64,000 nt of DNA, taken from NCBI GenBank assembly GCA_032358255.1, contig JAULBX010018303.1, positions 21,186 through 85,185 of the forward strand, read 5' to 3'. This DNA is from Heterotrichella gracilis (taxonomy: Eukaryota > Sar > Xanthophyceae > Tribonematales > Xanthonemataceae). Numbering within the stretch: the first letter of the stretch is position 1; each line of letters begins with the position of its first letter. The notes beneath the pieces are model-generated. The model made no database searches and had not been told where the DNA came from. It saw only the letters and a program-made list of their open reading frames with translations. The translations under genes and the position numbers were made by a program. This document shows, in pieces, positions 6,829-54,738 of the stretch.

Positions 6829-7136
6829 AGCTTATTTTTTAAAATTACTTATTGAATGACCTTCAAAGTCATTCAGAGTTTATTGAGTTTATTTTTTTAA
6901 AAATTACTTATTGAATGNNNNNNNNNNNNNNNNNNNNNNNNNNNNNNNNNNNNNNNNNNNNNNNNNNNNNNNNNNNNNNNNNNNNNNNNNNNNNNNNNNN
7001 NNNNNNNNNNNNNNNNNAATTACTTATTGAATGACCTTCAAAGTCATTCAGAGTTTATTGAGTTTATTTTTTTAAAAATTACTTATTGAATGACTTTCAA
7101 AGTCATTCAATAAGTAATGTAAAAAAATAAACTCAA
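6829..7136. repeat. AT-rich palindromic repeat array, MITE-like
   Basis: A unit of about 60 bp is repeated on both sides of the N gap. It contains ATTACTTATTGAATGACCTT followed by the near-complementary AAAGTCATTC, then a T-rich tract. The right end (7058-7136) folds into a long inverted repeat with arms starting TTGAGTTTATT and ending AATAAACTCAA. This looks like the hairpin terminus of a small inverted-repeat element that was amplified in tandem. It lies between two convergent genes. Confidence 0.75.
6918..7017. other. Assembly gap (100 N)
   Basis: Exactly one hundred N, the usual placeholder for a gap of unknown size. It sits inside the palindromic array, so the array is probably longer in the genome than shown. 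Confidence 0.97.
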
Positions 7137-7715: not shown

Positions 7716-9590
7716 CTATTTTGGCACGCTGTATATGACTGTCAGTCTTGGCCGCTTGCCAGTCTTCTTAGTGGCTGTGCTCCAAACCGCTGCGTTCCCG
7801 GAGGTGGCGGCCTGTGGAGAGCGGAGCTTGTGTATGCTGGGATGTGTGTTGTATGGGCGGGATTCCTTGGATGCAGGCATGGACTGCAACTTGAGCAAAT
7901 CTGTGACGATCCGGCATGGTGTCACTACGATCTGATGAAGTGGAAGGACCCAGCGTGTAATTTGCAGCGCGCATGCAATATTGGCATACATTGTGGCAAT
8001 CACTGCAGATGTTGGTAGTGTTGTCTTGCAGTCGTCCTTGGATTTGATATAGAACACAGTGAGCCATTTATAGTGAATGCGTGGTATGGCACTGTGTACA
8101 CACTGGCATGCACATCACATACCAGAAATGCGCAGATGACTAACAGGGGCTCAGCAATGCACGCCCTTGCAATAGTTTCCACATGCACGACCAAACCCTT
8201 CAACCCCAATCTAATTTCCCCAGCTACCACAGCCCACCCACCTTGAGCAGAATCCCAAATTGCGTGCCAGGGTTCTTCACCCACCCCTGCACCACTGAGG
8301 CCGACAGTGGCACTTGGTAGGACTGGTCACCCGAACCCGGAAGGCCCTTGATGGAGATCTTGGGTGCATTGGATCGGCAGGCAGACAGACCCCCTCGCTT
8401 GTCCTTGGCAGGTGTGGAGGGCCACTCCACTGGCTTGCCTGTCTTGGGGTCTGACCACTGGTAGCGCCAGCCTGAAGGTGGGGCGCAGGGGTCAGGGTGT
8501 TAACTGACCGCCACTGAGTACACTGTACAGGCTGTACATTACATGCGTGCCCCCGGGGTGGGATGCATCCACGTGGTACCGACAGTACTTAAACGGCAGG
8601 CGTTCCTGCTTAACATAATACGCTGCCAGGTGCCAGTCCCAATAACACCTCTGGCAGTAAGGTGCCCCTCATTGGGTACACCACCATGGTTGTTCCTGTA
8701 AAGGGTCACAATAGGATAGCTGTGATGCAGGCCATTAAAGTGGGCAATCTGGCTGTTTCATTTGGGCGCAACTGGTTGCCGCCCCTCACCTGTCGACTCA
8801 TACTCCTTCACCTGACGGGCATTCCAGTCCTTGCCCAGGTAGCATCCACTGATGCCCATGCCAGCCACCCAATTGGTCAACCCTAGGGTGAGGTTGGCCC
8901 CTACAATGGTGGCCTTGGAGGGGATGAAGCTTTCCATCCCCTTGAACCGCAGCAGGGTGCGGAAGGTTGTGTCGGTACCCTTGGTTAGGGTTTGCTCCTG
9001 GAGCGAGAAGGTGCCGGGGTTGCTGCTGGCCCAGTAGGTGGCACCGTTGAAGTTGTTCCAGTCGGCGATGTACTGGTTGGTGATGCCTGTCGCAAAGACA
9101 TGGGGGCGGTGCGGGATAGGGTCAACGCCACAGCCTTGCATTGCAGTGGTCTTTTCAGTGCTGTGCAACACAGTGAGGCGGAAGTGCTTGTTAGGTACAG
9201 TGAAATCGAGTAGTGGTAATGGGGACACACTGCTAGCTGGATGTGCATTTGTGGCTCTCCAGTTAGTCCCACCAGGTGCACCCTAAACCCTAACCCTTTC
9301 TCAGAAACCCTAACCGTGAAGTGCAGTGCACCTTTGTCTGCGCTGCCCGTGGAGGTGGTGGTCGAAACCCAAAACCCCAAACCCCAAACCCTAAACCCTA
9401 AACCCTACACAGTACCTATGTCTGCGCTGCCCTTGTAGGTGGTGGTCTTGCCCTTGAGGTCACGCAGCTGAGCACCGGCAACAAAGGTGATGGTGTGGAG
9501 CACAGGCTGCGCGCCCAGGGCTGCGGGGGAGCAGGCAGCAGCCACCAGCAGCGCCAGCACCAGGCGAGGGAAGGTGCGTGCGACTGACAT
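7716..9590 (-). CDS. Secreted DNRLRE-like protein
   Basis: Four exons (9590-9416, 9086-8790, 8471-8242, 7811-7716) join in phase to 265 residues. Residues 1-27 are a clear signal peptide (MSVARTFPRLVLALLVAAA). The rest resembles the DNRLRE/disaggregatase-related beta-sandwich domain: an early strand reading TFRTLLRFKGMESFIPSKAT (the 'alLrFd..lp..a.I..A.L' signature), a middle segment YQVPLSASVVQGWVKNPG followed by QFGILLK ('v..Wv.gp..nyGlllk'), and a C-terminal RPRLTVIYSVPK. Such domains are best known from bacterial and archaeal surface proteins and bind carbohydrate or matrix. An extracellular or cell-wall role is an inference. Intron 1 carries telomere-like repeats and a duplicated copy of the exon 1 end. 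The family call is from motif pattern only. Confidence 0.75.
9281..9410. repeat. Telomere-like CCCTAAA tracts in intron
   Basis: Two degenerate CCCTAAA/CCCCAAA tracts (about 9281-9317 and 9364-9410) lie inside intron 1 of the DNRLRE-like gene, one on either side of a copy of the exon 1 end at 9331-9363. Confidence 0.85.
9331..9363 (-). repeat. Duplicate of exon 1 end and splice donor
   Basis: 33 bp match the exon 1 end/donor at 9415-9447 at 30 positions by eye, 84 bp away. The copy still has a GT donor-like dinucleotide (GTGCAC). Confidence 0.8.
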
Positions 9591-10551
9591 GGCAGTATGG
9601 TTGGTGCGATATGTTGAAAGGACACAGGCGTCCCCGGTAGATGTATCGGTTTTTCCCTCCGAGACCTGGCAGGGTAACCCCCCCAGGGTGAGATGAGCCT
9701 GGTGGGGCAACTCACTGTCAGCTGCACTGTAATCCAAGTAAGGTCACAGACCCAAGTACTATGAGGTAGTTAGCTGGCGCTACCTGCGAGACACATTGGG
9801 GGAGGTGACGCATTGGTGAACTGGCAGAGCCGTGCCCACGCATGCATGCACGTAGTGCAAGTGCGACAACGTGTACCAGTGGCCTACAAGCACACACATA
9901 TCGGAGGCGACTGGTCCCCACTGCTGAAGCAGTAATGTGCGTGCGCGTTGTTAGCAGGTCAGTGTACAGTGCAAGCTGCATGCAGTACTGGTCCACCAAG
10001 TACGCACCTCGAGCTCGTTGGGACACACCGGTTTAAACGGCGTGCGTCTTGTAGACCAAACCTACGCAAGCGAAGATCTGGTGCTATTCTGCAGTTTGGC
10101 TGCAGATAACTGACGACAGATAACTGAGGAAGCTGCCGCGCGGTCCGAAGGTGGCCTGCGCCGCAGGCTGCGGGGTCCTCGGCGGGATGAGTCATTCGAA
10201 TTCGCAACACAGTGTTCCTTGATATCACTTTAGGGTGTATGCCAAACAGGCTGGTGCAGATCGCATGCGTATATCTTGTACTCGTACTATCCAGATACTG
10301 GCGCAGCAAGGCGACATCACGTTGCATGCATGTCCCCCAAAACAGTGGCCACACAATATGTACAAGTAGCCCGAAACCCTGAACCCAACTTTGGTGACTG
10401 TGGGTTCAGTCTTGTGCCCTTAGTATTGTTGGTGCGGCCCCTTCTTTTTCAGCATCACACGCTTTACATCTGCGTCAAGGCACCACCTCCCGATTGGCAA
10501 ATTAACTCTGCGGCCGGGCCTGGGTTGTAGGGTTGTGGTTGACGGCACGGC
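9591..10551. other. Divergent promoter region
   Basis: About 960 bp between the starts of the minus-strand DNRLRE-like gene and the plus-strand small membrane protein. No exon is supported. It should hold both promoters; GCATGC-rich words are frequent. Confidence 0.4.
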
Positions 10552-11710
10552 ATGGCACGGGGAGGCCCCGCCAGTGGCTCTTGGTGGCGTGGGACGCTGT
10601 CTGACCTCGTGGGGGTGCGCAGCATAAAGGTGCGCCACATGCATGCATGCGTGCCAATGCATGCATATGCCAACCCTTGCCCAAATCTAATCTCTCCAAA
10701 TAGCCTCGCAACAGTGGACCACTTTTGTGGTTTGCGCTCCCAAAATGGTGTGGCATTGGAAAAATGGGCCACAATGGCTGGTACTCTCCAGGCACCACGC
10801 CCATGCCATGTGCAAGCCGTTGGCTGACCCCACAACCGATACCATATTTGACCCCTGGTGCAACCGCAGAACGTGGCCGCATGGGGTGTAGCAGGCACCC
10901 TTGCCTACACGCTGTGGGTGCGGCCTGAGGTGGCGGCAGAAGCTGAGCGCAAGGTGGGTGGTGGGAACACAAAGGGGTGGAGGGACGGGATGTGAGGCGT
11001 TGCACTATGCTCTACTGCACCCGTCAAATATTCTTTTGAGCCGCTACCCTGTTTGCACCCTCCGCTCGATTTTACCGAAACGCTGAGCAAGGCCAGAGCA
11101 CCACGCATGCTATGGTACCTACCCAACGCACCCTGCCTAAAGCACTTCCCCCTGGTGGGTGCCCATGCACAGTCGAGCCTTGGCAAGGCATGTATTCTGA
11201 CACTCCAAATATATGCATATTCCCTGCACCAACACTACCCCACCCTGCCTCACGGCACCACACCACCCACCCACATGCTTGGCACCCTCTCCGCACCCAA
11301 ACCCCACCCACACCCTCCCCCATTGCAGGCTGCTCGAGCTGCAGCACGCGCCCGCTACCGTGAGCTTGGCATGGAGGAGGTGGACAAGGTGGTGCCCAGG
11401 CCAGGTGGGTGGATGGAGGCGGGAGGGTGGATCTATGTAGGGGGAAGCGGTGTGTGTGGCAAAATGGTGTGTGTGTGTGTGTCGGGAGGGGGTATCTTGT
11501 GGGGGCGGGTCACCGGGTGCGGGGGTATAGCAGTGCGGATGGTGGGGAAAGCCACTGATAATGCAAGGGGGAGGTTGCGGTGATTGCAACCATGGTAAGC
11601 CTGTGGATTGCTGTTCCCAGATGGGATGCGCCTGGCCAGCATGTGACGGCGTGCTTGTGTGCGATGCAGACCCTCAAGACACCGGGCTGGTCAAGGGAAA
11701 GAAGGAGTGA
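10552..11710 (+). CDS. Small single-pass membrane protein, 92 aa
   Basis: Four exons (10552-10629, 10870-10953, 11329-11404, 11670-11710) with GT-AG introns join in phase to 92 codons plus stop. After a basic, Ser/Gly/Trp-containing N-terminus there is one short membrane segment (NVAAWGVAGTLAYTLWV, residues 27-43), then an Ala/Arg/Glu-rich helix and a tail ending DPQDTGLVKGKKE. The layout (basic start, one membrane span, charged helix) resembles accessory subunits of mitochondrial respiratory complexes, but I do not recognise a named family. The reading frame is too fragmented to show as one long open frame; the call rests on perfect phase across three introns. Confidence 0.6.
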
Positions 11711-12503
11711 TTGGATGCAGAGGGGAGAGGGCCGGGGGGTGGGGGGTGGGCAGGGGATGCGGGTCAGTGGGGGCAGGTGGAGGGGCGTAGACGGGAAGAG
11801 CACCGCCATGGCATGGCTTCAGATGGCATGCTGCTGTGGATACGAGGAGTAGAGCGCAAGGCAGTGCAGGAGTGGAATTGTGAGCAAATTGCCATTTGCA
11901 GAACTTCTTCAAGCAAGGTAGTGGAGTCTGTGACAGCCAGCAGCATGGCGACAACCAACCAGGGTAGCATGCCGTGCAGGCTGGCAGTGCGAAAAGTGGA
12001 CCTTTGTGCACGGACAGCAAGCAGCTGAGTCGTCTGCAAGGATGACTTCCTAGGCCTAGGCTATGGAAGGAAATTTACAGTGTATTTTGTGCATCCTCCA
12101 GGTGGATGTTACTCCTGGAACATAAGGCTACCGCATGTACATCACTGGTTACTGGTATCATTAATTCATGGCAGTGTAGTTGCAATATTAGGTGTAACAT
12201 TCAATAAGTGACCTATTTGTTGTAGGCGCATGCCACAGGCTGCAGTTCACCGGATTATAGCTCCTTTGATATCTGCCATCCAGCTGCAGTGGCACCGGCC
12301 CGTCAATTCCAAGCATTTTGCAAGTGTCAATATCCACACACCACCGCGCCACCTCTGCACCACCAGGCAACTATTTGACCAGTGGAGGGAGGAATAATGA
12401 TTGCCGTGTTGCCTGAATGATTTGTTTGCACACTTCATCCTGTACATTCCATGGTTATTGTCCACACCTCATCCAAACATCTAGCTTACGCATGCCCCCG
12501 CCC
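11711..12503. other. Convergent 3' spacer
   Basis: Between the ends of the small membrane-protein gene (+) and tubulin cofactor B (-). No exon is supported; it should hold the two 3' UTRs. Confidence 0.4.
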
Positions 12504-14706
12504 CTATATCTCATCATCGCTGCCAAACAAATCCTCGTCGAGTGGCGGGAAATCACCCACCTGCACCGCCCCCGCCCGCACAAACCCTCCAAACCCCTCC
12601 ACGCACTCAAAGTACCGCTTCCCCTTGATGTTGCCATCGTTCTTTCCCACAGGCTCGTCGTATTGCACCCCCACCCACACACCTGCCGGCAAGCCCTCAC
12701 ATGGTCCAACAAATCTGCAGGTACAAGGGCGCGCATATAAGTCGGGGAGTGCGCACATGCAAATGATACTGCTCTGCAGGTAAGGGAGGCGCATATTGTT
12801 CAGGGCGCGCACACATGCGCAGCGCGCTGCACAGCAGGTACAAGACAGGCGCACATGCAACTCCTCATAACTTATGAGTCATAAGGCAACGCCACATAGG
12901 GTCCACATTAGTTTGGAACGCATGCCGTTGCATACCAGTGTTGCAGGGGTACACCAAGCTAACAGCAGACTTACTTGACTTCGCCCCTCTTTGCGCCGGG
13001 GTCCACCTCACACCTGCAGCCAACCACGATGCCCGCTGCCGCCACGTCATCAACATCAGGCGGGGCATTGTGGGTTGAAGCGGATGGGGATGGAGGCTGC
13101 TGCTGCTGAATCTCTTGCAGGAACCTAGGCATGGAGCGGGGCAAGCAAACGTGAATCACGGCATGTGAAGTGCCAGCAAACTTGAGTCACAGCATTTGAT
13201 CACCAAATTTGATCACCCAATGTTGATGTCCCAGCAATATGGTGGACCATGAATTGATTGTATGTGACGGCCATATGGTGGACCTCACATTCGTTTGTTA
13301 TGACAGCATGGTCTTCATGCTGTGGTTTGTGGCTTTCAACACCACATGCACATGGGCCAGTGCAACATGCAGCCACCTGCCAAGCAAATGTACCACACGA
13401 CCACTGTAGAAACCCTTCTCCAACCCCTTTGCACCCCACTCCACCCTGCTGTTGCACCCTTGGTCCAGATTCCAGGGTTTAGGGTTTACTTACTACCTCA
13501 TGGTGTTGTCCGCTTGTCATACTCCTGTTGCACACTTGGTTCAGGGTTCAGGCTTTAGGGTTTAGGGTTAAGATATTCGGGTTCACTCACTTCCTCATCG
13601 TGTTGTCCCGCTTGTCATACTGCTCCTCTGGCATCACGTACTTGTCAACCTTTGACACGTCGTCCAGCCAGCCGCCAGCTGTCACCGAGGCGGGGTCGGT
13701 GTCAATCACGTGGAGCACACACCTGCGGCAATCGATCATTAATATCTAAAATAAGAAGAAGAAATAAATGATACATAGTTAATATCTTACTAAATCCGAA
13801 TAGAAAATTTCAGATACGACCCTTTGTAACCCAACTGGTATGGCGCCACATATGAACATCTCCCAGAACCCTAGGCAAGCCCCTTAGCTACTACCCTTGC
13901 CATGAAGTCAACCCCACCCTGCCCTATGTCCACACCCACAGGATACAGCCTGCAAGGATGGTGCGCCACATACCCATCGTAAGGTGAGTAGTACCCCAGC
14001 GGCCGGGTGTCGTTGTCCAGCTCAGCCAGCAGCGCCCCCCCCTGGTCAAGGAGCTGCAGCCGCTGGGAGGAAGCTGCGCTGCCTGTGTGGGACTGGAGCT
14101 TGCGCTTGACGCCATCCACACTCATCTGCGGGCGGTGCAAGGGGCGTAAGGGTGCGGGGGTGCAGGGAGCACCAGGTGTGGCAGTGCAAGGGGCGTAAGG
14201 TGTGGGGGTGCAAGGGGCGTAAGGCATGGCGGTGCAAGGGGGGCCAGGTGTCGCACAGTGTGAGATGGCGGCAGAGCGTGACTTGCGGCGTGCGGACATT
14301 GGGAGGGAGTACTGGTGACTGCCTATTGTGTCATCAGCTTTGGGGAAAAGGGATGGCATCGGGGACAGATGGCAGGCAAGGACAATAGTGTGAGTGAGCA
14401 TGATGATGAACGACTAGTGTTGGACTGGTTACCATAGGTACCCATACAAAGGGTGTCCATGCTTTCTGTGGAGCCCACCAGTGTGGCTGCAGTAGGACAT
14501 ATGGAGGTAGCACCTTGGATATGAAGACTACAAGTGCAATTGCAATGTATCCTTGCGGGAATACTACAAGGCCGAGTTCAGGGTTGCGTGTGGGTGCGCA
14601 CATGCAGGTCGAGTCGAATCTCTGCAAACCCATGGCGCAGGTTGCTGTGGGTGATCTGCAGCCGCACTGCGCCGCCAGAGGGCAGCTGCTGGTCCACAGA
14701 ACGCAT
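12504..14706 (-). CDS. TBCB: Tubulin-folding cofactor B
   Basis: Five exons (14706-14602, 14125-13974, 13722-13591, 13124-12975, 12714-12504) join in phase to 249 residues, close to the usual size of about 245. The N-terminal ubiquitin-like domain includes VRLQITHSNLRHGFAE and MSVDGVKRKL, followed by GYYSPYDG; the C-terminal CAP-Gly domain includes GLPAGVWVGVQYDEPVGKND and GKRYFEC. The protein ends LFGSDDEI, a C-terminal acidic tail typical of the family. TBCB binds alpha-tubulin and works with cofactor E in tubulin dimer assembly and disassembly in the cytosol. Intron 1 contains a 24-bp minisatellite; intron 3 contains telomere-like repeats with a duplicate of the exon 3 end. Confidence 0.94.
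13471..13572. repeat. Telomere-like TTTAGGG tracts in TBCB intron 3
   Basis: Short TTTAGGG tracts at about 13475-13487 and 13541-13570 lie on both sides of a copy of the exon 3 end. A further partial repeat unit starts near 13449 (CTGTTGCACCCTTGG, repeated at 13525). Confidence 0.8.
13488..13523 (-). repeat. Duplicate of TBCB exon 3 end and donor
   Basis: About 36 bp matching 13584-13620 at 33 of 37 positions by eye, including one single-base deletion, about 97 bp away. Confidence 0.8.
14132..14252. repeat. 24-bp minisatellite in TBCB intron 1
   Basis: Five units of 24-25 bp starting at 14132, 14157, 14181, 14205 and 14229, core GGTGCAAGGGGCGTAAGG. On the gene's strand the repeat is open and in frame with exon 2, giving an 8-residue Ala/Pro/Cys/Thr repeat if the intron were retained. 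Confidence 0.85.
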
Positions 14707-16005
14707 TGCTGTCAGAGTGCTATCAACCCAGTAGTGAGTGCCACCACAGAGGAGCTGCGTCGGGCCCTGGCACGTGCAGTCCCTGGGCCTTTTGTCAGGA
14801 TTTGGTACAAGTTGACGATCCTGCAGATGGAGGAAGTACAGACTGTAAATTAAATGAGTTCCTGTGGTGCCGTTGAGACGGGGATAAGTTTTGCAGAAAG
14901 CGAGGTGGCACAATTAAAATTGTATGTAGCAAGATTTGATATGAGTTTTGCGCACTTGCAGTATCCACTCCAGTCAGTATGCAAAAACCACAAGGAATAT
15001 AGTGTTGCATCTGAGAACGACGAAGTCAAACTGTCGCGCCACCATATGCACCCCTTGCACGCCGGCCCTGGTTGCACCTTTTCACATGCCGGGTGGCAAC
15101 TTTGCACCCAAGGCTGGCATATGGGGTTGTAAAGATGTGGCGTAGTAAAAATACAAACAATAGTGCGGTTGAGCGGTCCAAAGGTGGCCGAGGGCCAACG
15201 GTTGATATGCATGCATATAGGCATTGGCACCCCATGCACAACCCCACCTGCTGGAAGCGCTGCCCTGCGTCGGATACCACCACCCGACAATGCACGGTCG
15301 GATAAGGTGAAGTAGTTGTTTGCCGTTCTTAGTTGAAGACGGTGAACAGACTACAACCCTTTACACTCGCGAACGTTTGTGCAGAGCCTTGTTCTGGGCA
15401 GGTCACGATAGTTGAATCGGTGCGGGCGGTGAGCAGTACGCCGCAGTTTTCAAAAACAGCACCGGGGCGTCGGAACTCGTCGATAGGACAACAACAAAAC
15501 TTGAGGCATCGGCAACCCTCATCAACCATCAACTCGTTTACTTTTGGAAAGTGCCCCTACCGCTTCAGCTGCATCCCCGGCAGGCGTCCCCACAACATCA
15601 CAACGAGGCATTGGTTATTTCTATTTGCTTAACTATACAAGAGTGCATGCCTCTGACTTGCTTGTTGAATGTATTTCTCTGATCAAAAACGTATGTTTTT
15701 GGTACTCAGTGCCGGGCATGCGCACGCCAGGCCATGCCACAGTGTGCCGGGCATGTTATGGCAGTGTCACACAAAATTGGATATCCAAATCCTGAAGATT
15801 AAAAATGGCGTCGAGTGCACACACGCCTTGCACAATCAAGCCCAAAGTACATGGTTTGATCAAAGCACCATCTGTCCATTCACTATTGCGACTGCGTGCT
15901 CGTTGCCCAGGTGGGCCCTTCCTCCCATCCGATCCAGTAGAACAAACGTACTATGGCTCAAGACCATGATGCATCCGATGTCTGAGGCATATTTGTGGGA
16001 CATCA
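14707..16005. other. Spacer upstream of TBCB
   Basis: 1.3 kb between the TBCB start and the SOUL gene stop, both on the minus strand. No exon supported; short open frames here have no protein-like features. It should contain the TBCB promoter and the SOUL 3' UTR. Confidence 0.4.
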
Positions 16006-18213
16006 CTAAGCCCCTCCCTCATTACCAAGCGTCAAGGGCTTCCCCGTGCTCCTCTCCTGGCAGGATATACACCCTGCCCCCTCCAGCGCACCCTCCGCCA
16101 AAATCACAACCTGTGTCGGGCGGGACAAGGGCAATGTGGATGTCAATGTGGATGACAGCAAGGTACTTGTACATGATTGCATTATGCCACACTAGCGCTG
16201 CAGTATAACACACAGACTCTGTAGTTGATGACGATAGCAGCTGCTGTTGACATCCAAGGCTTTTAAAAGTGGCAATAAGTAGATGGGAATGCTGGGCTGA
16301 AACATATAAATAGGTGGCCAAATGGATTAGCTTTGCCAAAGATTACAACAATTGCTTGTGCATTGACCAAGGTTTCATTAGGCTAGCTTCAACTGCACAT
16401 CCACCCACATATACGCCTGGCACAGGACAGCAAATGTGGATTTTGACTTTCTTACATAAGGGCCTCTTGGGCCACATGCCAATTAGCAACCCTCTACCCT
16501 CCACTACTGTGCAGTACTTCCGCAACCCATGTTCCCGCTTGCATTCGCACCCATCCTTGCCTCACCTCATTGTGCCTGTGCCTGAGCTCCCTGTGCGGGT
16601 TGCTGTCATAGATGGCGGCCAGGAAGCGGCGGTGGTCGGTAAGGACATCGGCGGCTTCCAGCGCGGCTGCAAGTGCGGCTGCCTGGTGCTGCAGGGTGCG
16701 GCGGTCGGCGCGCCCAGGGAAGGACAATGCGTAGGCTGTGAGGGGAGGGATGCGCCACAGCTCCACCTGAGAGTTGGGAGGATTCACGATTTTCTTTGTT
16801 TTTTTTAGTGATGTCAGAGATTGAACCCAATTTAGAGGTACCAACGGTATGGTTTTTTTTCTTTCAAAGAGTCTTTAAGTCATGACACAACACTGTGACA
16901 ACATATCATGCCCGATCGAATTTGCAACATGGCATGACTGCGCAAGCATGTGCACACAAGGCGCATAATGCATTTGGAACGAGCTCGACCGCAGCATCAT
17001 CCCCTAGTGACATTCACAGTTATGTACAGAAGGATAGCAGGGGAGCGCCTCACCTTGTCGCTGAGGGGCAGGGGTGGGTGCAGGTGGGCGGTGCGCGGCA
17101 GCCACATGCCAACCAGCGCTGGGGAGGCTAGCGCGTCCCTCCCCGCCGGTGACCACTGCATTGCCGTCACCAGCGGCGTGGTTGTGTGCAGCACCACATG
17201 GCGGCGGTTGACGCCGTAAAAGTAGGGAAGCAGGTGCTGCGCGCATGTAATTGTTTTTTCTCTTGGGGGAAACATGGTGTGTGGAAGGAATGCATCGTTG
17301 TACAATGGCATTTAGTGTGGGGGGGGCATCTCAATGAGCTACATACTGTTTATTTTCCACCATCATGGGCGGCCCATCAATGCCGGCAGGTGTATGGCAT
17401 AATGCTAATATTATGCTCATATATAGTATCCAGCATGACCTGGAGCACGGATCATGGATATATCTTATTGAGTACATTGCTAATGTACGTGGTGCACCTG
17501 ATTAATCAATTGCCATGGTCCATGCCAATCAGGTGCACGCAGCTTTGATCCATGTTGTGCCGTAGCCCCTACGGGTACACTCCAAAGGCCAACCAGGGGT
17601 TTTGATGCGCAGCGCGCTGCAGCTTATCTGGGGTCACCTTGAATCCCTCTCCCATCTCCGGGCAGTGCTCCCCCACACAGCGGGACCCACTCACGCGCAC
17701 AATGGCCCACACGCCTGGGAAACGGGAGAATGAGGAATGAAGAGATGGGAAGAATGAAGAATTGGGAATTCACTTTGCCATTATGGCAAGAATGGGCAAT
17801 GGGAAGCCCATGGGCAGGCTGTGCTTGCGCCGCATGCGGTGCTGAGCATGTCCCATGCCAATACCCCCGTCACCCATCACCAGCTGGGAAGGATGCCTTC
17901 AGGAGAGGACTAGCCATAGCCACACAGAGGCTCTGAGCAAGACCAAGGCATTGGCAACACCATAGGTGGCAATGCATAACAGAAGGAGTACCCATGTTGG
18001 CCACTCACCTGCTTCGTAGCGCCTCTCCTCGTATTGGTCAGTGGTGTTGCAGTTGGTGAAGATGGGGCACGGCTGGTTTTGGCAGAAGTCTGGGGGTGTC
18101 CATCTACCAGGGTGGGTCTGCTGGTGTGTGAACGAGGTGCTGTTCTGCATGCAGCCCCCCATCACACCTGCCACCACCTGCAGCGTAGCCACCAAGTATA
18201 CCAGCCATGGCAT
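16006..18213 (-). CDS. SOUL heme-binding family protein
   Basis: Five exons (18213-18009, 17714-17638, 17236-17054, 16766-16566, 16110-16006) join in phase to 256 residues. Residues 1-23 form a signal peptide (MPWLVYLVATLQVVAGVMGG), so the protein enters the ER or another membrane-bound compartment. SOUL/HEBP signatures follow in order: FTNCNTTDQYEERRYEAGVW, then GFKHLLPYFYGVNRRHVVLH with TTTPLVTAM, then VELWRIPPLTAYALSFPG. SOUL proteins bind tetrapyrroles; in algae some are plastid or eyespot proteins. The Cys-rich N-terminus (five Cys before the SOUL fold) and a short tail with CISC are extra. I cannot tell from sequence whether heme is really bound. Confidence 0.88.
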
Positions 18214-19175
18214 TGCCAGCTTGAGATAGGCTCTGAGCTGACTGCAGCTTACTGTCGGATACGCACTGACCAGGCTGGAGTAAGAGCGAGGGGTTCCAGA
18301 CAAGGGAAAGGAGGCCACCATCATGACGGTGGGATGCCCGTTCTGAGTCAGCAGGCTGCGACGCCCTCCTCCGCTGGCTCAGTGAGTGACACGGTTACAT
18401 CACTGTGGCACTCAGCTGAAAACAATGTATGCATATGGTATCGTTATGTACACACTCGAGCTACCAGCGTAACAGTGTATGTACAGTGTAACAGTTTCGG
18501 GCCGGCTAATGCCATTACACGGTGTAGCATACAACTTGTACTTGAAGTACAGCTACTTGAAACAGCTTGAAGCCGCTTCCCGAGTCGGGAAACAGCCAAC
18601 GGCAATCGACTGTGACGGAATGCATGCGAGAAAAGACTCTGCTCAGGGACTTCAAATTGGGCCAACATTTGGCGGGATCCCGAACAAAATTATAAATGTA
18701 TTATATGCACAATGGTAGGCCAAGCCACCTTTCGGTGCACCATGAGTCAGTTGAAAGTCAACTGACAATCACTGACTGTCACAGTGTCACAATGTTTGTA
18801 ATATTAATAGCTGTCGGACTCAGGTGTTGGACTAGGAGGAGTCAACGTTGGGGTACATTCATTTACACGAAGAATCTTATGTGTACCACCCACTGGGGGC
18901 CACTCACTCACTGCCAGCGCATGCAGCATGCAGCATGCAGCGTTCACTTTGAGATGGACCAGGCATACATGTTCCAGGTGCGTCCAGGCTCAAAATTCCA
19001 GGCAACTCAGATCTGTAAGGACTAGGTTGTTGATGCTACACAGCAATCAGTGAGTCACCAGTGCAGCTGCATCGCGGTTCACATGAAATTGCTGCACAGG
19101 CCAGCTGCCCGTGTGACCTGCGCTGCTTTGACATGGCTGGCAATCAGGCATCACAGCTCCTAGCTTGATACTATC
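18214..19175. other. Spacer between SOUL and MYND B genes
   Basis: About 960 bp upstream of the SOUL start and downstream of the MYND B stop (both minus strand). No exon supported. GCATGC-type words are present. Confidence 0.4.
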
Positions 19176-22100
19176 CTATGCCTTGCTGCTCTTCTTTGCG
19201 CTACATGTCCCCCTGTGCTTGGGCCAGTGCGCCTCCTGGCACAGCTTGCCGCAGTACCTGGTCTGGCCACACCTGTGGAGGCAGGGGCCATGGTGTCATG
19301 GGCATGACATCAACTCCGCAGAAGAGTAAAACAACAGATAGCATGCGTGCATCCCGCTCCGTAGCCTGTAGATGCTTGCTGGCGTTGTGCACATGCATGC
19401 AAGCATCGATCAAGAACTCTGGTGTCATTGTAACCACTCCTTTGACAAGTAAGGTTGCATGCCTGACTGGACCACACCTGCATGCGCGCAGCTTCTCCCC
19501 TTCAGCTGGCACCAGCCCACACATGCGGCACCCCTTGAGCCTGCTCCTGAACGCCTCCCCCTCTTCATCATCATCACACGCATCCCGCACCTCTGGCGCA
19601 GGCTTGCCCACGCGCTCAATGAACACATACACGCGGGCGCAGCCAGGGCGCTTGGCATGCGCGTCATCATCCGCAGCGTACGCCAGCACCGGTTCAAACC
19701 TGTCATTGACCACCTGCTGCACCAGCACTGCGGCGTCCATGGCGACTCGCATGGGGTGCTGCGAGCTGCCGCTCTGCTTGGATGCCAGGATGGGTGGGTG
19801 CATGACCACGTTTGCAGGGCAGTCCTTGGGCTGCAGGGAGCGGAACACTACGCAGCAGTGGTTGGCTGGTACAGAGGGCATGACCTTGCGCTCCACCTGC
19901 ATGGGCAAAAGCAGCTGTCATACAATCCAAGCGCCTGTTAACCCTAGGCAAGGGTGTACTGTCAGGCTGGGACGACGTGCTGCTGCAATTGCAGGCATGG
20001 GTTGCAACTCTCTAACCTGTTTATTGCTCTGTATAATTGAACAGTATTGGCACCATCCACGACTACCACACCAGCGGAGAGACGTCAAAGAAAGGGTGCC
20101 TGTTATATATGGCCTGCGTGTACTTGCATGTAGTCCATTGTATACACCACTAATGACGAGTCGTGGGCTTCAGGGTTTTCAGCGTATGCAGCTGCACATG
20201 CAATGGCAAAGATGCCCAACAGTACCGTTGCTGCACACTATCGCTTCTATGCACAACAGAAGCGGGCCGCCTGCCATGAGATGAATGTAGGGTTTTTGAA
20301 TGCGCCATGAAAGGGTCTGGTAAAAGGAGGGCTGGCGCTGCATACCGCTGCCTTGCTGTTCTGCGCTCACGCAGCCGCAGCTCCTCCACAAGGCAAAGGC
20401 TAACCCCCAAACCCTTAACCCTAAACTCTGAACCCTAAACCCTTGATCCTAACCCTAAACACCCCGTACCGCTGCCTTGCTGTTCCTGCGCTCTTGCAGC
20501 CTTAGCTCCTCAAGCTTCACCACCAGCCCAAGCACAGCCTGCGGCGTGTTGCTGCTATCCACCCGCACCAGCACGCCCACCCGCTCCCCCCGCTCCCCCT
20601 CAAGGAAGGACACAATGCCGCCAGGGACATCAGACAGGCCATCGCGGCGCAGCTCCTCTGGTGTGGCCGGCCGCACGCTGTTTGGTCCTGCTACAATGCC
20701 TTGGTCCACGGAGGAGGCACCTGTGTCAACATAAAAGACTGTGCCTTCGGTCGTCACCCCAGGTAGGAGCTCAGCCCCTACTCCAAGGTTTGGGAGCACT
20801 GTGTGCATCAGACGCGCCTGCAAGCACCAAGAACGGCCTGGCTCAGCATTACCAGCACCCGCTACTGCTAGGAAGCACGAACGTGGCCATGTGTAGATTT
20901 CAAACCCTGGGGTGCTCAATACCAGCAATCAAACATGTTCCTTGTCTTCATTGGCAGCATCATGCACACTGCTGTGTTGCACACTTGGAGCAGCGAGTAT
21001 GCTGCACGAATCCAATTCCCTTCAATCAAGGTGATGTAAATGCTAAGGCCGGGTACAACGTCCCCATGTAGGTGCAGCAAACAATGCCAACCCTGTTAGC
21101 TAGTGCGCATGGCATTGGTATGCAAAAATGTCGTGCGGGAATGGTGCCCATTATCTGCCCATTACTCAATGGTGGATGGAAACGCTCCCCACCCTGCGCT
21201 TCCATGACCAACCCCTTGGAATACAGAGAACTGACGCTATCCCCATCCTTACCTTGTCGGCGTACTCGCTTGAGACCCGCACTGCCCCAGCTGGTCGGTC
21301 CATGCAAACACTACCCCTGGGAAGACCAGCATCCACAACCAGCTGAAGCCGCCAGTTGCGCTTGCCTGGAAGGACACGCAGGGCTGGGTGAGGGGCTATG
21401 TTCACAAAATGCACTCATTTTCTTTGCTTTGGTTTAGTTTCATTCCCACCTACCAAACTTCCGCCCCCGCATTATTGCAGCAACAGATGGGCTATCCATC
21501 ACTCAGATCCGCTGGCTCAACAGTCTGGGTACTTCTGATACCACACCTTGGTGCATCACCAAGCACGTGCAATCTGCACCAATGTCCATCCCTTACCTGT
21601 CGCTGCGCAGCCCAGCAGCGTCATCTGCTCCCAGAAGTTCCCAACATGCGTGCTGGAGGTCCACTCGGTGGTGGATTGTTGCAGCAGGTACCTGCGGGGC
21701 AGCAGGCTGGCAAGTCACATGGTGCGCGCTGCTTGCCAATCAGGCTGCACTCGGTTTAGGGTTTAGGGTTTAGGGTTGACCAGCGGGACAATAGGCTGGA
21801 CACTCACAAGGCGTGCGGCTTGTGAAGGAGGCTGCGTTGGGTTCTATGTCAAAATTGCTTGCATAATTCCAATTTAACTGAGGCTGGTCCCACCAATGAT
21901 ACTGCAGACCATGCTCCTTACGTATGTAAAGAGGTAGGATGGGGGTACATCCAAGGTACGCATGCAAAAAAGCAACAGAGATCCTTATCTAACAAGTACT
22001 AACAGTAAATTGATCGCAGTGCAGACCAAAATATGGACTTGCGGGATGAGGCTGGGATTGCAAACACTTGCCATACAACCTGCCATACAACGGACAAATA

Positions 22101-33420: not shown

Positions 33421-34521
33421 AAGCTGTATCGGCACGTCCTGAAGGGATTTGCATGGGGGTATTGGAGGGTTGTGGCATGAGTATTGCATGTTTTGGGAAT
33501 ACCGAGGTTTTCCAGAAATTAACATGGAATTAACGCGGACTACAATAAGTGTGTGCTCTCCTTTGCATGGTCCTAGTATGCTAACATGTTTTTCTTCCCA
33601 AGTGGTCCCTGGCAGTTGATGATGTTTCTGCATCACACAGCTGTGGCATTGTGGTTGCTGTGGGGTTGCGTGCCCCTGCAGGGATGTTACTCGCAGTTGA
33701 ACTTGCAAGAACTGTGACTCATCTTGGAGGTGCATGCATGCATGCGCGAGGTGCATGCATGCCAGAACTGTGACTCACTTCAAGCAGTTTGAATTTACAT
33801 TTAAATTTACCTAATAAATATGTGTGGCACTGGTGTTGGATCATCAAAGTGTTGGCCAAGGTGTTCGGACCACCACCTTGCCGTTGTTGTATTGATGTAT
33901 ATTTCAAGCATTGGGTGTAGATCCAGCCTTCAAACTTCAGTGCCATATGCCAGCAGCTCGTCACCAGTGGGGATTGTGTGCTTGTAAACCCTTTAGGGTT
34001 TAGAAACCCTAAAACCCCCTGGGTATTTCGGGGCAAAACTTCAGGTTTTGGTTAAACAACTGGTTCCGCAACATACGTAAAGGAGTGTCGGTGCTAAAGC
34101 CGTTCCGTGTCCATGTAACCAACAAGGCTCTCTGAATGACACCATAGGTAGCTGCATTGGTAGCTGCCTGTACTTCAGTACTGGTACCACAGCATAGGCG
34201 TTGCGCACTACCTTGGACCCTAGTACTTGGACATTGTCAAGGTAGTGCTGACTGCCGTATAGGGACAACAACCGGTTTGGGTGTACAGCTGAAACCTTCC
34301 TCGATGTATAGCTGATAGTTGGTTTATCCAGCGCCTGGGAATTATCAGCACTCAAAGCTTGCGGCATGCACCCTCACATCTCCTTGCCGCGTATGCCGCG
34401 CAGTCACACAGTGAGGGCTAGCCACTATATAGCCACACGGCACTTGCCTATGGTGCGGTGAATTCACTTACTTCACTCATACTGGCAAATTAGCTGCACA
34501 GGCCAAACCAAGCTTTTCAAA
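33421..34521. other. Spacer between PC-esterase and ligase genes
   Basis: 1.1 kb with no supported exon. It includes a GCATGC-rich stretch (33728-33763) and a small telomere-like palindrome near 33990-34016 (CCCTTTAGGGTTTAG). Confidence 0.4.
34426..34431 (+). promoter_or_regulatory. Candidate TATA box for the ligase gene
   Basis: TATATA lies about 90 bp upstream of the ATG at 34522, in a GC-rich setting. Position is plausible for a core promoter; there is no other support. Confidence 0.35.

Positions 34522-49398: not shown

Positions 49399-54738
<5,340 letters not shown>

Follow-up and report, generated by a model that had tools for sequence, protein, structure and literature searches.

Direct duplications of exon edges around telomere-repeat arrays in the genome of Heterotrichella gracilis

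Telomere-like arrays and duplicated exon edges in the window

The window, meaning the whole 64,000-nt stretch of Heterotrichella gracilis DNA analysed here (C184:21186-85185; 54% GC), contains four places at which a short array of the telomere-like repeat TTTAGGG lies near a predicted exon edge, between two direct copies of neighbouring sequence. In a wider sample of the 68.5-Mb assembly, direct repeats of variable length likewise end at or near such arrays, are in excess over controls and are concentrated at exon edges. A preliminary description of the window had reported four exon 3' ends that were repeated, with their splice donors, around telomere-like arrays. Three of these are as described. 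The fourth shows weaker similarity between its copies (72-74% identity), and its position is that of an acceptor and not of an exon end.

Direct repeats flank the arrays at 9365-9407, 13554-13569 and 20400-20460, with a spacing of 84-125 bp and an identity of 84-100% in pieces. In the first case, 9330-9363 matches 9414-9447 (34 nt, 91% identity). In the second, 13479-13526 matches 13576-13624 in two pieces (85% and 94%, shift 97-98), and a further piece, 13446-13488 against 13522-13564 (84%, shift 76), contains the array. The array has therefore been repeated along with the exon end, and the region 13446-13624 is built from a tandem unit of about 97 bp that holds both. The third case consists of 20343-20386 and 20467-20511 (19 of 19 positions plus 85% of 26, shift 124-125). 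Exons were called with a coding model which was trained on 264 kb of this genome and uses no splice signals. It places minus-strand exon ends beside the copies of these three cases at 9418, 13600 and 20468, and they are therefore exon ends with donors. In the fourth case, 21690-21756 and 21779-21843 match at 74% and 73% without gaps and at 72% when aligned (score 34). The coding model calls nothing at 21779-21843 and puts the exon on the other side, at 21601-21711; this is therefore acceptor-side or intron sequence and not the 3' end of an exon. The features of the four cases are as follows.

9414-9447, minus strand: exon-side copy, 3' end of predicted exon 9418-9593 with donor (direct repeat, coding model)
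9365-9407, minus strand: telomere-like array between the copies, CCCTAAA on the plus strand and TTTAGGG in gene sense
9330-9363, minus strand: intron copy of the exon end, 91% identical (direct repeat)
9280-9313, minus strand: second array, beyond the intron copy as seen from the exon
13589-13624, minus strand: 3' end of TBCB-like exon, donor AA/GTGAGT (coding model; CAP-Gly in neighbouring exon)
13554-13569, plus strand: telomere-like array between the copies, CCCTAAA in gene sense
13492-13526, minus strand: intron copy of the TBCB-like exon end, 89% identical, forming with the array the tandem unit of about 97 bp
13474-13488, plus strand: second array copy, outside the TBCB-like intron copy
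20467-20511, minus strand: 3' end of predicted exon 20468-20778 with donor (direct repeat, coding model)
20400-20460, minus strand: degenerate array between the copies, TTTAGGG in gene sense
20343-20386, minus strand: intron-side copy of this exon end (89% identical), beyond which no array exceeds the threshold
21690-21756, minus strand: exon-side copy, acceptor side of predicted exon 21601-21711 (direct repeat, coding model)
21753-21777, plus strand: array between the copies, CCCTAAA in gene sense
21779-21843, minus strand: second copy, about 72-74% identical, no predicted coding DNA

The orientation of the array differs among the four cases, as noted before, with two TTTAGGG and two CCCTAAA in gene sense. 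The gene names proposed earlier fare unequally. TBCB fits a CAP-Gly match (E 1.5e-19) in the neighbouring exon of that gene, the only Pfam match above the cut-off among nine window stretches picked by eye, but the exons named DNRLRE and MYND have no Pfam match at E 0.1.

Duplications at telomere arrays in the wider sample

The telomere of this organism is TTTAGGG, as seen from perfect six-unit arrays in telomere orientation within the first 300 bases of seven contigs (C70, C140, C526, C609, C712, C717 and C770), and the interstitial inserts consist of this same repeat. Telomeres of the TTTAGGG type are known from green algae. In the whole assembly the 14-mer TTTAGGGTTTAGGG is found 2845 times on one strand and 2784 times on the other, and the reversed pattern 2 and 3 times; interstitial arrays therefore number in the thousands. 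The window together with C2:1-200000 (264 kb) holds 36 arrays. If this density holds, extrapolation gives a number of the order of ten thousand arrays for the assembly, around a quarter of them with a detectable duplication, a figure drawn from one contig and one window, where 11 of the 14-mers are found and about 22 are predicted from the whole-assembly count. The window entered the sample through its array finding, and C2 is the first contig listed. The main array set covers the window, C2:1-200000 and further loci on C2, and an independent set comprises 20 arrays on contigs C3-C6. Arrays with fewer than seven exact 7-mer matches, or too near a locus end for the required flanks, were left out of the flank-similarity, distance, outer-array, edge-matched and repeat-end tests. 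The same three arrays lying mostly in predicted coding DNA were dropped from the 69 of the edge-matched control and from the 36 of the distance test.

Around each of 69 arrays, telomere motifs were masked in the 150 bp on either side, and the two flanks were then aligned with one another. In direct orientation 26 of the 69 score at least 32, and in inverted orientation none does; the same score is reached by 0.6% of 1358 pairs of swapped flanks and by 3.4% of 2000 random positions. Arrays up to 500 bp apart are counted separately in this figure; with one array drawn per locus, 12.3 of 41 loci score at least 32. Other simple tandem repeats in non-coding DNA reach that score in 3 of 101 instances. 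In the independent set it is reached by 3 of 20 arrays, and a score of at least 24 by 6 of 20 (inverted: 0 and 1). Conversely, 12 of 53 local direct repeats in the 264 kb have a telomere motif between their copies, against 3.3% of random windows of the same size. The earlier proposal of a process rather than chance is supported in this wider sample by the random, swapped, inverted, exon-matched and simple-repeat controls, and on the sampled contigs duplicates are indeed commoner near telomere-like arrays than at positions matched for distance to exons (9/33 arrays against 4.0%, and 24/66 against 5.2%). Chance is thereby rejected as the general explanation of the duplications, as are inverted repeats, swapped flanks, random or exon-matched positions and other simple repeats.

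The repeats also have a defined relation to the array. At 22 of 90 arrays, belonging to 16 loci, a repeat ends at the array or within 8 nt of it on both sides, with a score that 0.7% of permuted (swapped) flanks attain. Lengths of up to 70 bp were tried, and these repeats measure 15-70 bp. L061 (56/56 identical) and L065 (15/15) are the clearest examples, with a single array flanked by the two copies and no array seen beyond them; in L052, another single-array locus, the copies are 95% identical. In L061 (C4:9780-10200) a 41-bp telomere-like filler separates two identical copies, 56 bp each, of the end of a kinase-like exon with its donor, and this duplication is probably a young event. The exon side of L061 shows weak similarity with SnRK2 and AMPK kinases of plants (best E 0.013) and stays below the Pfam cut-off for kinases. 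The variable repeat length argues against a single transposase. A transposable element was considered and rejected, there being no fixed length of target-site duplication and, by eye, only the telomere repeat in common among the loci.

Elsewhere on C2 the exon edge and the array form longer runs. Within L015 (C2:262462-265475), positions 2066-2413 consist of several copies of an exon edge alternating with the telomere array, in the manner of a minisatellite. L017-L019 (C2:286878-292278) contain similar multi-copy runs, in which the exon edge is likewise repeated as in a minisatellite.

The arrays outside coding DNA are close to exons. In the 264 kb their median distance from predicted coding DNA is 42 bp, compared with 260 bp for random non-coding positions, and 18 of 33 arrays lie within 50 bp, compared with 15% of random positions. 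Where an array falls in an intron-like gap of up to 1000 bp between coding stretches on the same strand, it is within 50 bp of the edge in 14 of 20 instances (26% expected); here, as in the orientation tallies below, several arrays of one intron are treated separately, so that some share a gap. Among the independent arrays 11/20 lie within 50 bp of coding DNA, against 19%, and 15/20 within 100 bp, against 31%, the control positions in this comparison being drawn from the window and C2 and not from C3-C6. A pattern count that uses no gene model points the same way: the donor-like GTGAGT has 78 matches in the 30 nt upstream of TTTAGGGTTTAGGG and 73 in the 30 nt upstream of CCCTAAACCCTAAA, as against 36 and 40 at 300-330 nt. 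Counts of GTGAGT, and of TGCAGG below, include overlapping matches and clusters, for example one on C172. By eye, no sharp array position after the donor is apparent in the GTGAGT spacings listed. The exons concerned include recognisable genes. Ten of them were picked by eye as such (nine of the 32 exons listed for the independent set, and L061), and seven pass the Pfam cut-off: ABC1, adenylate kinase, RRM, KH, a short-chain dehydrogenase type, bromodomain and fatty acid desaturase.

When one array is taken per locus, exactly one of the two copies is coding in 22 of 27 loci, neither in five and both in none. At an identity of at least 92%, exactly one copy is coding in 8 of 11 loci, so that decay of old non-coding pairs probably does not account for all of the edge bias. 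An exon-edge preference specific to telomeric repeats is, however, not upheld, since non-telomeric local direct repeats straddle exon edges as well. Their lower identity (86%), together with one coding copy in 21 of 41, indicates that detection bias plays a part. Duplication of exon edges may be a general feature of this genome, the edge bias then belonging to duplication overall.

Staggered breaks as a probable origin, and alternatives

Telomeric DNA joined into a staggered and filled-in break would leave such a pattern: repeats of variable length that run up to the array, and no array outside them. We give a probability of about 60% to the reading that telomeric DNA has been joined into staggered breaks, the filled-in ends forming the duplication, which was sometimes expanded later. 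According to this model, read from sequence, short telomere pieces would be joined into staggered chromosome breaks, and filling in of both overhanging ends would place the overhang (about 15-70 bp) on each side of the array, giving X-array-X. Later tandem duplication at some loci would give (X-array)n-X. An X that spans a splice site would leave one splice site beside its exon, whereas an event lying entirely within an exon would disrupt the gene and not persist; these outcomes would explain why one copy is coding and the other decaying, and never both coding. A concentration of breaks at splice-site edges is one possible reason for the small number of arrays in intron interiors. We infer both the staggered break as the starting lesion and its closure by end joining. 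The CST complex also fills in telomere ends, and by analogy it would be an attractive link between telomere-end fill-in and the duplications seen here.

A repair of breaks by template switching or telomerase had been suggested before. Flank duplication by break repair fits best, but telomerase priming at the break is not supported. In mammals in-register bases at the break are a hallmark of telomerase, though not at every locus, and they occur in excess (PMC2246262). At the present loci the priming side has them in 4 of 14, two of these four being repeated arrays, and the opposite side likewise in 4 of 14; this small and diverged sample (14 of the 16 array-ending loci, the least similar, L051 and L053, being omitted) shows no excess. 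Capture or copying of telomeric DNA is accordingly at least as likely as telomerase action.

Several observations, the in-register counts among them, weigh against the staggered-break model. The duplicated flank has to stand in for an orthologous empty site. In L061 the 41-bp filler is imperfect though the flanks are identical, and 29 nt of it are found only once in the assembly by exact pattern search; its copying from another persisting array was rejected for that reason, as the pattern matched its own locus alone. The rate of scores of at least 32 is lower for isolated arrays, with no neighbour within 500 bp (6/27), than in the whole set, and lower in the independent set (15%) than in the first one. 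GTGAGT also precedes TTTAGGGTTTAGGG 46 times at 60-90 nt and 53 times at 130-160 nt, so that the donor peak over these counts is just 1.5-1.7-fold, and genome-wide TTTAGGG arrays are not enriched before TGCAGG (185 near, 185 at 300-330 nt). Among non-telomeric local direct repeats of the window and C2:1-200000, 21 of 41 also have exactly one coding copy. Under-representation in intron interiors is left over, as selection against exon damage fails to account for it. Finally, an outer array is present in 17 of 29 scored arrays, and many loci thus need tandem duplication of an array-bearing unit; in addition C2a:20789, counted as single, has a decayed array-like stretch below threshold after its second copy.

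These last points bear on the strongest alternative, in which the array came first: pre-existing fragile arrays near exon edges would have led slippage or unequal exchange to duplicate a unit of 50-130 bp containing edge and array. Instability of interstitial telomere tracts is documented (PMC6410037), the array, filler and exon end of the TBCB-like gene are repeated together, and C2:262462 and C2:286878 are (X-array)n runs. The 17 cases with an outer array, out of 29 scoring at least 32, are in keeping with such an origin, but are not independent of one another, several being (X-array)n runs at one locus. Duplication of a unit would leave an outer array, and yet in the other 12, among them L061 with 100% and L052 with 95% identity, one array lies between the copies and nothing above threshold lies beyond them. 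Since repeats also end at or near the array in 22/90 arrays, we regard an array-first origin as unlikely.

Less probable still is that arrays have been kept at exon edges for aiding splicing, G runs serving donors and the pyrimidine- and branch-like CCCTAAA serving acceptors, with the duplications as a side effect. Of arrays within 50 bp of an exon, those on the acceptor side read CCCTAAA in gene sense 14 times and TTTAGGG 3 times, but donor-side arrays show no preference (14 and 14), a contrast with a Fisher p of 0.056. Within 30 nt, TGCAGG follows CCCTAAACCCTAAA 353 times and TTTAGGGTTTAGGG 185 times genome-wide, the control at 300-330 nt covering TTTAGGGTTTAGGG only. The bias may equally come from removal of false acceptors, as TTTAG before the true acceptor would perhaps act as one. 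Repeats that end at the array would be left unexplained by an aid to splicing.

The preliminary description had also raised local duplication creating introns. In such an origin telomeric insertion and tandem duplication inside an exon would make a new intron, as in tandem-duplication and introner models. The likeness of CCCTAAA to a pyrimidine tract followed by a branch site, and of TTTAG to an acceptor, speaks for it. Duplications across intron-exon boundaries can indeed make introns, as in the potato RdRp gene (PMC4974935). The present loci do not support this, and we consider it very improbable: both copies are coding in 0/27 loci, of 20 arrays in intron-like gaps one has a gap of 103 bp and the other 19 have gaps of 294-901 bp, which exceed the length of array and copy together, and in L061, L065 and C2a:189660 the sequence just past the intron-side copy is not called coding. 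Chance or assembly artefact is the least credible origin: a gap of N in the window with the same 75-bp repeat at both ends indicates that local assembly errors exist, but the random, swapped, inverted, exon-matched, simple-repeat and permuted controls all contradict it, and copy identity spans 72% to 100%, as real events of varied age should.

Relation to known systems and further features of the window

The elements of this pattern are known one by one, and telomeric insertion with flank duplication is a described kind of event. Introners are mobile introns, and the many inserts in introns with flanking direct repeats are a likeness to the arrays here. Unlike introners, the present inserts have no common body beyond the telomere repeat, their repeat length varies from 15 to 70 bp, and the introns are not made of the insert. 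Introners are mentioned in PMC11782384.

The earlier statement that no described system does this does not hold, as telomeric insertions with flank duplication are described in horse (PMC7215372) and tandem duplications by fill-in elsewhere (PMC8355091). Mammalian short interstitial telomeric sequences (PMC2246262, PMC7215372) share with the present loci the short telomeric insert at a non-telomeric site and the direct flank duplication. In horse the authors name staggered double-strand breaks as the cause of the duplication, which is found alone in 3 of 66 loci (4.5%) and with deletion and addition in two more (PMC7215372), compared with array-ending repeats at 22/90 arrays here. According to the portions of these papers used here, no human interstitial telomeric sequence lies in an exon, and the human share in introns is that predicted by random insertion, whereas here the arrays crowd exon edges. 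In mouse and human cells, small tandem duplications arise when CST and Pol alpha-primase fill in 3' overhangs (PMC8355091). As would be the case here, their size is set by the overhang (49-nt overhangs there) and no homology is needed; the filling is done there by a telomere end-processing complex, so that a role of CST here would be by analogy, and in contrast to the present loci no telomeric insert is reported in the text drawn on. In the potato RdRp gene the duplicated stretch spans a splice site, as here, but a new intron resulted and no telomeric array is reported in the text drawn on (PMC4974935); there is no sign of intron gain at the present loci. Among the matches listed from the open-access literature, which leaves subscription papers mostly outside, no title or abstract concerns telomeric insertions that duplicate splice-site edges. 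By that measure the frequency, the concentration at splice sites and the orientation bias on the acceptor side appear to be new.

If the staggered-break model is true, telomere repeats tag break repair inside genes, and one genome would hold a record of break position relative to splice sites, of stagger (15-70 bp), of splice-site duplication and of intron enlargement. The origin of breaks in genes, including splicing-related structures as a cause, would become countable here, and the duplicated edges would offer raw material for alternative splice sites. A wider proposal, which we advance as a doubtful one, is that breaks fall preferentially at exon-intron boundaries, possibly through a link with transcription or splicing, and that many of them are repaired with telomeric DNA and fill-in duplication of the splice-site edge. 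Thousands of telomere-tagged scars would then map these splicing-associated breaks and build introns from their edges.

The window has some further features related to the above.

49854-49880, minus strand: array reading CCCTAAA in sense, at 36 bp from the start of a predicted exon, with no detectable duplication

At 6842-7092 an identical 75-bp stretch flanks a gap of 100 N (6918-7017), which is probably an unmerged contig overlap. A telomere-like motif at 8985-8993 lies within the predicted coding stretch 8794-9123, and another one at 33985-34013 has both orientations adjacent to each other.

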